Origin: Verrucomicrobiota bacterium
GTDB lineage: Bacteria; Verrucomicrobiota; Verrucomicrobiia; Limisphaerales; JADLHS01
NCBI GenBank assembly: GCA_029573725.1
Contig: JAKQDQ010000178.1
Span: 531,929 to 595,928 of the forward strand
Reading direction: 5' to 3'
DNA: 64,000 nucleotides
The position numbers were made by a program, and so were the translations under genes. Positions 1,131 to 12,113 of this stretch are shown in pieces (position 1 is the first letter of the stretch; each line of letters starts with the position of its first letter). The notes under the pieces were generated by a model that was not told the DNA's origin, ran no database searches, and saw nothing but the letters and a program-made list of their open reading frames with translations.

Positions 1131-1442
1131 CAACCCGTATCTCGTGCCGTGGACGAATTCGCTCTTCGAGAACGCGCCCGCCGACGCGATGGGCATCCGC
1201 GCGCGCTGGGATCAGATGGGTTGGAAGGACAAGAAACTCTGGGTCATCGGCGGCGACGGCGCGATGCTCGACATCGGTTTCCAAAGTTTGAGCCGCATGC
1301 TGGCCAGCGGCATGAACATCAAGGTGCTCGTGCTCGACACACAGGTTTATTCCAACACGGGCGGGCAATCGTCCACCGCCACGTTTATGGGCCAGAACAC
1401 CAAGTTCACCGTCCACGGCAAGGCCATTCCCGGCAAGATCGT
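1131..1442 (+). pseudogene. Fragment of 2-oxoacid (pyruvate):ferredoxin oxidoreductase, TPP-binding domain
   Basis: The frame from about 1132 reads NPYLVPWTNSLFENAP, then VIGGDGAMLDIG, then LDTQVYSNTGGQSS. These are hallmark motifs of the thiamine-diphosphate/Mg-binding domain of pyruvate:ferredoxin oxidoreductase (NifJ/PFOR type). Only about 100 residues of a family that is usually over 1100 residues are present. There is no start, and the frame runs straight into the left inverted repeat of the mobile element at 1443. The motif residues are still intact, so the truncation is probably fairly recent. It cannot make a working enzyme. Confidence 0.85.
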
Positions 1443-1849
1443 AAAGGGGTCAGTTCTTGGTATTGTTCACTCCCATCATTCACCTGAGGGCTCCTTGCCG
1501 CCACCGGTGCAAACGGTTGTTCAGATAGCCCGCCGTGCCCATCCCCAGGCGCTCGGCAATCCACTTCACCGTCACCACTGTCTCCGCTCGCACCCGGGCC
1601 GCTATTGCCACCTTGCTCAAGTCGCCTTTCGCCCGCGCCGCCAAATCGCCCGCCCGCCATTTTCGACGTTTCAATGCTTCAGCAATCATTCGCTCCCGGT
1701 CCTGGTCATCTTTGAAAATCTCCTCCCGCCGCTCGCCACGATTCATCACAGGATAAATCGCGCCGGGATAGTCCACGCGTAACTTCCGCGCCATGACCAG
1801 GCCCGCCCAGTGGACAGCGAGTAGTCATTACCAAGAACTGACCTCTTTT
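1443..1849 (-). mobile_element. 407-bp element with terminal inverted repeats carrying a deleted RAYT transposase, copy 1
   Basis: The left end (1443-1464) and right end (1827-1848) are inverted repeats of 22 bp with two mismatches; the shared core is GGTCAGTTCTTGGTA. Inside is a minus-strand gene for a 104-residue protein. A second copy of exactly the same length lies at 11479-11885 and differs at about a dozen positions (around 97% identity by eye). The left end abuts a PFOR fragment and the right end abuts an IS256-type transposase fragment. No clear target duplication is visible. By structure it is a non-autonomous derivative of a REP/RAYT-type Y1 transposon. Confidence 0.8.
1480..1794 (-). 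CDS. Internally deleted REP-associated tyrosine transposase (catalytic core missing), copy 1
   Basis: The 104-residue product has two recognisable parts. Residues 1-35 (MARKLRVDYPGAIYPVMNRG onward) match the start of REP-associated Y1 transposases. The last 70 residues (from about ERMIAEALKRR, through VTVKWIAERLGMGT) match the C-terminal helix-turn-helix-like region that such proteins carry in this phylum. The middle, which should hold the HxH metal motif and the catalytic tyrosine, is absent, so the protein cannot cleave DNA. The reading frame across the deletion is intact and also open in copy 2. It could bind element ends and act as a repressor or helper of a full-length transposase elsewhere, which is inference. 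Confidence 0.65.
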   Translation of the reverse strand: MARKLRVDYPGAIYPVMNRGERREEIFKDDQDRERMIAEALKRRKWRAGDLAARAKGDLSKVAIAARVRAETVVTVKWIAERLGMGTAGYLNNRLHRWRQGALR

Positions 1850-11478: not shown

Positions 11479-11885
11479 AAAGGGATCAGTTCTTGGTATT
11501 ATTCACTCCCATCATTCACCTGAGGGCTCCTTGCCGCCACCGGTGCAAACGGTTGTTGAGATAGCTCGCCGTGCCCATCCCCAGGCGCTCGGCAATCCAC
11601 TTCACCGTCACCAGCGTCTCCGCCCGCACCGGCGCCGCTATTGCCACCTTGCTCAAGTCGCCTTTCGCCCGCGCCGCCAAATCGCCCGCCCGCCATTTTC
11701 GACGTTTCAATGCTTCAGCAATCATCCGCTCCCGGTCCTGGTCATCTTTGAAAATCTCCTCCCGCCGCTCGCCACGATTCATCACAGGATAAATCGCGCC
11801 GGGATAGTCCACGCGTAACTTCCGCGCCATGACCAGGCCCGCCCAGTGGACAGCGAGTAGTCAATACCAAGAACTGACCCCTTTT
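11479..11885 (-). mobile_element. 407-bp element with terminal inverted repeats, copy 2
   Basis: Its structure is the same as the element at 1443-1849: left inverted repeat at 11479-11500, right at 11863-11884, one mismatch between them, and one minus-strand gene inside. The right tip is duplicated: CTGACCCCTTTTC occurs at 11874-11886 and again at 11888-11900. The right side abuts a formylglycine-generating-enzyme-like fragment. Both copies are in the same orientation, 10 kb apart, so recombination between them could delete or duplicate the DUF1800/DUF1501 operon. Confidence 0.8.
11516..11830 (-). CDS. Internally deleted REP-associated tyrosine transposase, copy 2
   Basis: This 104-residue product differs from copy 1 at three residues (Arg to Pro, Val to Leu and Gly to Ser in the C-terminal half). 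As in copy 1, the N-terminal signature MARKLRVDYPGAIYPVMNRG is joined directly to the C-terminal DNA-binding-like region. The HUH motif and catalytic tyrosine are missing. The frame is intact in both copies, which hints at spread by a full-length transposase acting in trans rather than by independent deletion. Confidence 0.65.
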   Translation of the reverse strand: MARKLRVDYPGAIYPVMNRGERREEIFKDDQDRERMIAEALKRRKWRAGDLAARAKGDLSKVAIAAPVRAETLVTVKWIAERLGMGTASYLNNRLHRWRQGALR

Positions 11886-11900
11886 CACTGACCCCTTTTC

Positions 11901-12113
11901 GACATAGCCAATGGATTCAATGGCGGGTATGCGGTGACGGATTCCACGGCTTATTTGAATAGCCAGAATTATTTGACGGACGTAGGCGCGTTCAGCTTAG
12001 CCGACAGTTTTTATGGGACGTTTGATCAAGGCGGGAGTGTGTGGGAGTGGAATGATGCCGTAACCGGGTCTGCGCGTGGTGTGCGCGGCGGGAGGTGGGG
12101 CGGCGCAGGATGC
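11901..12113 (+). pseudogene. Fragment of a formylglycine-generating-enzyme-like (SUMF1) domain protein
   Basis: From 11901 the frame reads IANGFNGGYAVTDSTAY, then YLTDVGAFSLADSFYGTFD, then QGGSVWEWNDAVTG and ARGVRGGRWGG. This is the typical end of the FGE-sulfatase domain (FDQGGNVWEWNE...RGGSW). The front two thirds are gone and replaced by element copy 2. After GGRWGG the sequence loses similarity. It cannot be functional. Confidence 0.8.

Follow-up and report, generated by a model that had tools for sequence, protein, structure and literature searches.

A 407-bp element with an in-frame transposase remnant in a Verrucomicrobiota genome, probably a non-autonomous deletion derivative of a TIRtron

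Results and Discussion

Two 407-bp elements with inverted ends

The window analyzed is a 64,000-nucleotide stretch of a Verrucomicrobiota bacterium genome (GenBank assembly GCA_029573725.1, contig JAKQDQ010000178.1). Two 407-bp elements lie on its reverse strand, at 1443..1849 (copy 1) and 11479..11885 (copy 2). They are identical at 395 of 407 bases (97%), which bears out the near-identity noted in a previous sequence-only reading of the window, and the flanks of copy 2 are unlike those of copy 1. Copy 1 was classed by sequence comparison as a putative non-autonomous element (mini-TIRtron). In each copy the ends are 23-bp terminal inverted repeats (TIRs) that differ from one another at two positions. 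In copy 1 these are located at 1443..1465 (forward strand, gene 3' side; AAAGGGGTCAGTTCTTGGTATTG, the same end as on full-length parents) and 1826..1848 (reverse strand, gene 5' side), and in copy 2 at 11479..11501 (forward strand, gene 3' side) and 11862..11884 (reverse strand, gene 5' side). The inverted ends described earlier are real, but they had been given as 22 bp long, and the right end is located one base inside the terminus originally assigned.

Between the ends of each copy is a 104-codon ORF (1480..1794 in copy 1 and 11516..11830 in copy 2, both on the reverse strand), and the two encoded proteins are 97% identical. The ORF comprises residues 1-35 of a Y1 transposase followed by the C-terminal, predicted helix-turn-helix (HTH) region. 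No Pfam or NCBIfam model matched either protein, as would be expected if the catalytic domain were missing, and the Y1 catalytic domain (PF01797), the HUH motif and the catalytic tyrosine are absent from both ORFs.

Window 1144-1442 encodes part of a thiamine pyrophosphate enzyme (PF02775) that resembles pyruvate:ferredoxin oxidoreductase; copy 1 either interrupts this fragment or adjoins it, and the fragment reads directly into the element. Partial end sequences (TGACCCCTTTT) were observed in tandem beside element ends at window 11885-11905 and at loci L007, L070 and L099, with up to several repeats in genome G011; these may be traces of recurrent insertion at ends already present.

The full-length parent resembles the TIRtrons

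Full-length genes sharing the same ends, the comparison suggested by the sequence-only reading, do exist. An element on contig C4 of genome G276 (L133/L152) has ends as in the window copies; its ORF encodes 312 aa and contains the motifs NHFH and YVHLNP. The parent element is approximately 1.04 kb long, and parent-type relatives of 298-320 aa are present in the genus, family and order, with ends that read (G)TAAAGGGGTCAGTT...ATTGAC upstream and the inverse downstream. Both protein motifs are invariant in 28 of 28 parents. The parent protein matched PF01797 (Y1_Tnp; 9.8e-15), and its structural model (mean pLDDT 86) matched ISDra2, IS608 and the E. coli RAYT structure 4er8 in a Foldseek search. 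Its C-terminal region is helical and HTH-like by prediction, with only weak matches to DnaA domain IV and no match to a Pfam HTH model.

The end motif GGGGTCAG is found in the window copies and in the full-length parents and fits the consensus GGGGWSAS, and no REP hairpin in the window ends folded better than shuffled sequences. Di Nocera et al. (2013; PMC3733652) gave the name TIRYT to RAYT-like genes with TIRs on either side and the name TIRtron to the corresponding elements, with GGGGWSAS as the end motif; Quentin et al. (2018; PMC6006769) place TIRYTs in subclass 2.1. Judged by their sequence features, the parents appear to fit the TIRYT/TIRtron type better than REP/RAYT systems, and the transposase, initially described as REP-associated, is better described as TIR-associated. 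Full-length TIRtrons directly adjoin truncated copies of the same family at G003:C125 (L037/L043) and at the right flank of L133, which suggests insertion into or beside each other.

A short direct repeat marks the deletion junction

Alignment with the G276 parent showed that the window ORF joins residues 1-35 directly to the part that follows E242-R243 (312 − 208 = 104 aa), in agreement with the composition proposed from the window alone. The HUH motif (H60-F-H62) and the YVHLNP tyrosine both lie inside the deleted part, and the loss of both, noted in the first reading, was thereby confirmed. The junction is located at 1691..1695 in copy 1 and, in identical form, at 11727..11731 in copy 2 (both on the reverse strand), and is marked by a GAGCG microhomology that falls on Glu-Arg codons. 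The parent carries GAGCG twice, at ATG+99 and at ATG+723, in both cases in phase 0 and over a Glu-Arg pair, and loss of one repeat with the intervening DNA removes 624 bp, or 208 codons. The reading frame of the 104-codon ORF is therefore preserved because the two repeats are in phase, and selection is not needed to account for it. Searches of the family, of 293 genomes from the order and of 384 from the class found the same 35|244 junction nowhere outside the source species.

Four copies at unrelated sites

A DNA search of the source assembly (4.28 Mb, 187 contigs) for the 407-bp form returned four copies, not two, all on one contig (C71) at 455, 464, 533 and 543 kb. One identical junction is common to all four, which extends to two further copies the identity first noted for the window pair. 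The 1-kb flanks of the four copies are mutually dissimilar, with similarity ending at the inverted ends, and this indicates that each copy was inserted independently and that they do not stem from duplication of a single segment. The ORF is broken in two of the four, by a 4-bp deletion causing a frameshift in the 464-kb copy and by a TGA at codon 5 in the 455-kb copy, which has also lost its left end. The copies are consequently not always decayed, a possibility that the first reading had raised, as the other two ORFs are open.

Local segmental duplication or recombination, instead of transposition, might be proposed for the four copies, since they fall within approximately 90 kb of one contig (C71:455-544 kb). 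This is very unlikely: it is largely refuted by the dissimilar flanks, and it is also opposed by the occurrence of both orientations on C71 (two copies each way) and by same-junction derivatives at unrelated sites in other species. With four copies of one junction, unlike flanks and full-length elements with the same ends elsewhere, the earlier suggestion that a deletion derivative had multiplied, and not a full transposon, was upheld. The clustering itself (G000:C71:455557-544000 of a 4.28-Mb genome) may reflect local hopping, or other copies may have been lost at contig breaks. Compared with the window copies, the 464- and 455-kb copies (L003/L004) have in common a cluster of HTH-region changes, which resemble the local full-length pieces; exchange with another family member or gene conversion is a possible explanation for this cluster.

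A second derivative with a different junction is present at the end of contig C91 (G000:C91:1-417, L095), and contigs C113, C145 and C178 each break off within a 3' piece of the TIRtron family. It could accordingly be argued that the shortened element is a longer repeat that collapsed in a metagenome assembly, given the 187 contigs and the truncation of these other family copies at contig ends (C91, C113, C145 and C178). Such an artefact can be given almost no weight: all four copies lie away from the ends of their 729-kb contig, they have a clean junction in common while differing in sequence, and similar deletions occur in many other assemblies, as well as at the orthologous locus of genomes G110 and G149.

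No intact full-length copy of the subfamily, and hence no helper, was seen in the assembled genome, in which 13 end motifs were counted. The only two PF01797 genes of the genome encode short single-domain proteins of the IS200-like type, and these were rejected as helpers as they are different proteins. A further short repeat, CCCTGTAGGGGAGAAG...TTACCAAGAACCGACCCCTTTA, is present with a single end in L004 (near 1885-1915), L008 (1340-1405) and L015 (1460-1532), and is apparently another family of TIRtron remnants.

Internal deletion recurs in related genomes

An order-wide protein search found derivatives with both ends and other junctions in genomes G079, G087, G269, G110 and G165, some in frame and some not. 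As a protein search favors in-frame cases, ends were also paired in one genus regardless of coding. In this survey only two of 18 elements were intact (L170 and L171), and the other 16 were deleted or frameshifted. In three of the eight short elements (258-429 bp), the frame begins at a native-like start and continues to the native C-terminus (L156, which begins ATGATC, L160 and L162); by chance, about one third would be expected to do so.

Junction A (L159 and L163, in which the start codon is absent) and junction C (L156 and L160, both in frame) are each present in two species, at sites unrelated to one another, which implies movement or copying of these derivatives. Junction B (L158, L162 and L164) was rejected as a mobile lineage, as it occupies one orthologous site in three species and was inherited vertically. 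In the sister species G149 and G110, the same locus (1.5-kb flank, 93% identical) holds a full-length element in G149 and one with 606 bp internally missing in G110; here the deletion happened in place. Taken together with the differing junctions, which mark many independent deletions, these observations indicate that TIRtrons are often internally deleted in this bacterial group. A search of a plasmid collection gave no match, and a search of viral contigs gave no relative; a scan of genome contigs gave seven relatives. One locus, L077, was initially taken for a contiguous (deleted) match and was rejected when it proved to be full-length.

The 104-residue protein is most likely a passive remnant

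An AlphaFold2 model of the 104-residue protein retained the C-terminal helices (residues 30-99; 1498..1707 on the reverse strand in copy 1), with pLDDT values of approximately 78-88 over residues 31-100 and residues 1-27 unstructured. A fold search with this model gave weak matches only, DnaA domain IV among them. The two window copies differ by five synonymous and three non-synonymous changes (dN/dS 0.19). The first reading had suggested that the short protein, if it binds element ends, could act as an inhibitor or helper, and trans repression has been proposed for KP-type deleted P elements. By this account, binding of the HTH region to the element ends or to the transposase represses transposition in trans or helps the full-length enzyme. 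The predicted retention of the fold, the open frame and low dN/dS of the window pair, and the in-frame state of both junction C derivatives in another genus are the points in its favor.

The ratio between copies was low, but it is not diagnostic. The frameshifted and stop-bearing copies gave a dN/dS of 0.18 between them, and derivatives of the surveyed genus that are start-less or out of frame gave 0.04-0.32 against the full-length gene or each other. Because copies unable to make the short protein have similarly low ratios, the ratio is a legacy of the parent gene and does not reflect use of the short protein, and dN/dS was set aside as proof of coding. The low values probably reflect the parent gene through recent deletion, or through exchange with full-length copies. 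The ORF is also not conserved among the four copies, half of which are broken, start-less derivatives have moved, the in-frame rate among short survey elements is near chance, and the junction microhomology alone accounts for the frame. A search around copy 1 revealed no promoter-like site, and PMC6006769 casts doubt on recognition of the ends by the C-terminal domain. A functional protein is, in consequence, an improbable explanation. A more specific form is likewise improbable; here the in-frame HTH remnant would be a trans-dominant TIRtron regulator, mini-elements would limit their own parents, and such repressors would arise by recurrent in-frame deletion at the Glu-Arg repeats.

Origin of the 407-bp elements

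The best explanation for these observations, to which a probability of roughly 0.88 is assigned, is that the 407-bp elements are MITE-like, non-autonomous deletion derivatives of a TIRtron, mobilized in trans as passengers and carrying a passive 104-aa remnant. Both ends are kept and are common to the autonomous element, the coding core is lost, and several copies (four) are present at unrelated sites. A full-length element of approximately 1.04 kb, encoding a 312-aa transposase, would have lost 624 bp between two GAGCG repeats, possibly by slippage between them, and no selection would have been needed for the remaining 104 codons to stay in frame. Both ends would be kept by the shortened element, which a full-length TIRYT would then copy in trans to new sites; this helper is presumably either absent from the genome or unassembled. 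The 104-aa product would most likely be a passive remnant, apparently without function. Against the passenger explanation it may be said that no helper is assembled and that transposition is deduced from the distribution of the copies, and a selectionist could still make use of the two open frames of four and the ratio of 0.19 between the window copies.

The same-junction derivatives at unrelated sites, together with the full-length and deleted forms of one orthologous locus, indicate that TIRtron ends are mobilized and show how miniature elements arise from transposase genes of this kind. The 407-bp element is, in addition, a ready minimal substrate for TIRYT activity.

Comparison with known systems

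The parents resemble the TIRtrons and TIRYTs in having a Y1/HUH transposase of approximately 310-320 aa with a C-terminal extension, here a predicted HTH, in their GGGGWSAS TIRs (here GGGGTCAG) and in the repetition of the TIRs elsewhere in the genome. The C-terminal HTH expected of TIRYTs is similar to Bac_DnaA_C, HTH_23 or HTH_28; the region examined here is helical by prediction, with weak DnaA matches. The window elements differ from TIRtrons in lacking the catalytic core, and a partial search of the literature found no description of TIRtron deletion derivatives.

With prokaryotic MITEs the elements have in common their small size, non-autonomy, conserved TIRs, origin by internal deletion of a full-length element and occurrence at unrelated sites. 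They differ from them in the 104-codon in-frame remnant, in ends that belong to a Y1 and not to a DDE transposase, and in numbering only four copies. The IS200/IS605 elements ISDra2 and IS608 are related through their structures, which the catalytic domain of the parent matches, whereas the parent differs in its predicted C-terminal HTH and in bearing terminal inverted repeats in place of subterminal hairpins. RAYT/REP systems and REPINs (PMC3116915, PMC8049555) offer a further parallel, in that they combine a related Y1 transposase with short non-autonomous elements with inverted ends. The ends described here have no REP hairpin and no GTAG-tagged REP, the copy number is low and a transposase remnant is retained inside the element; the origin of mini-TIRtrons nevertheless bears on how REPINs could have begun.
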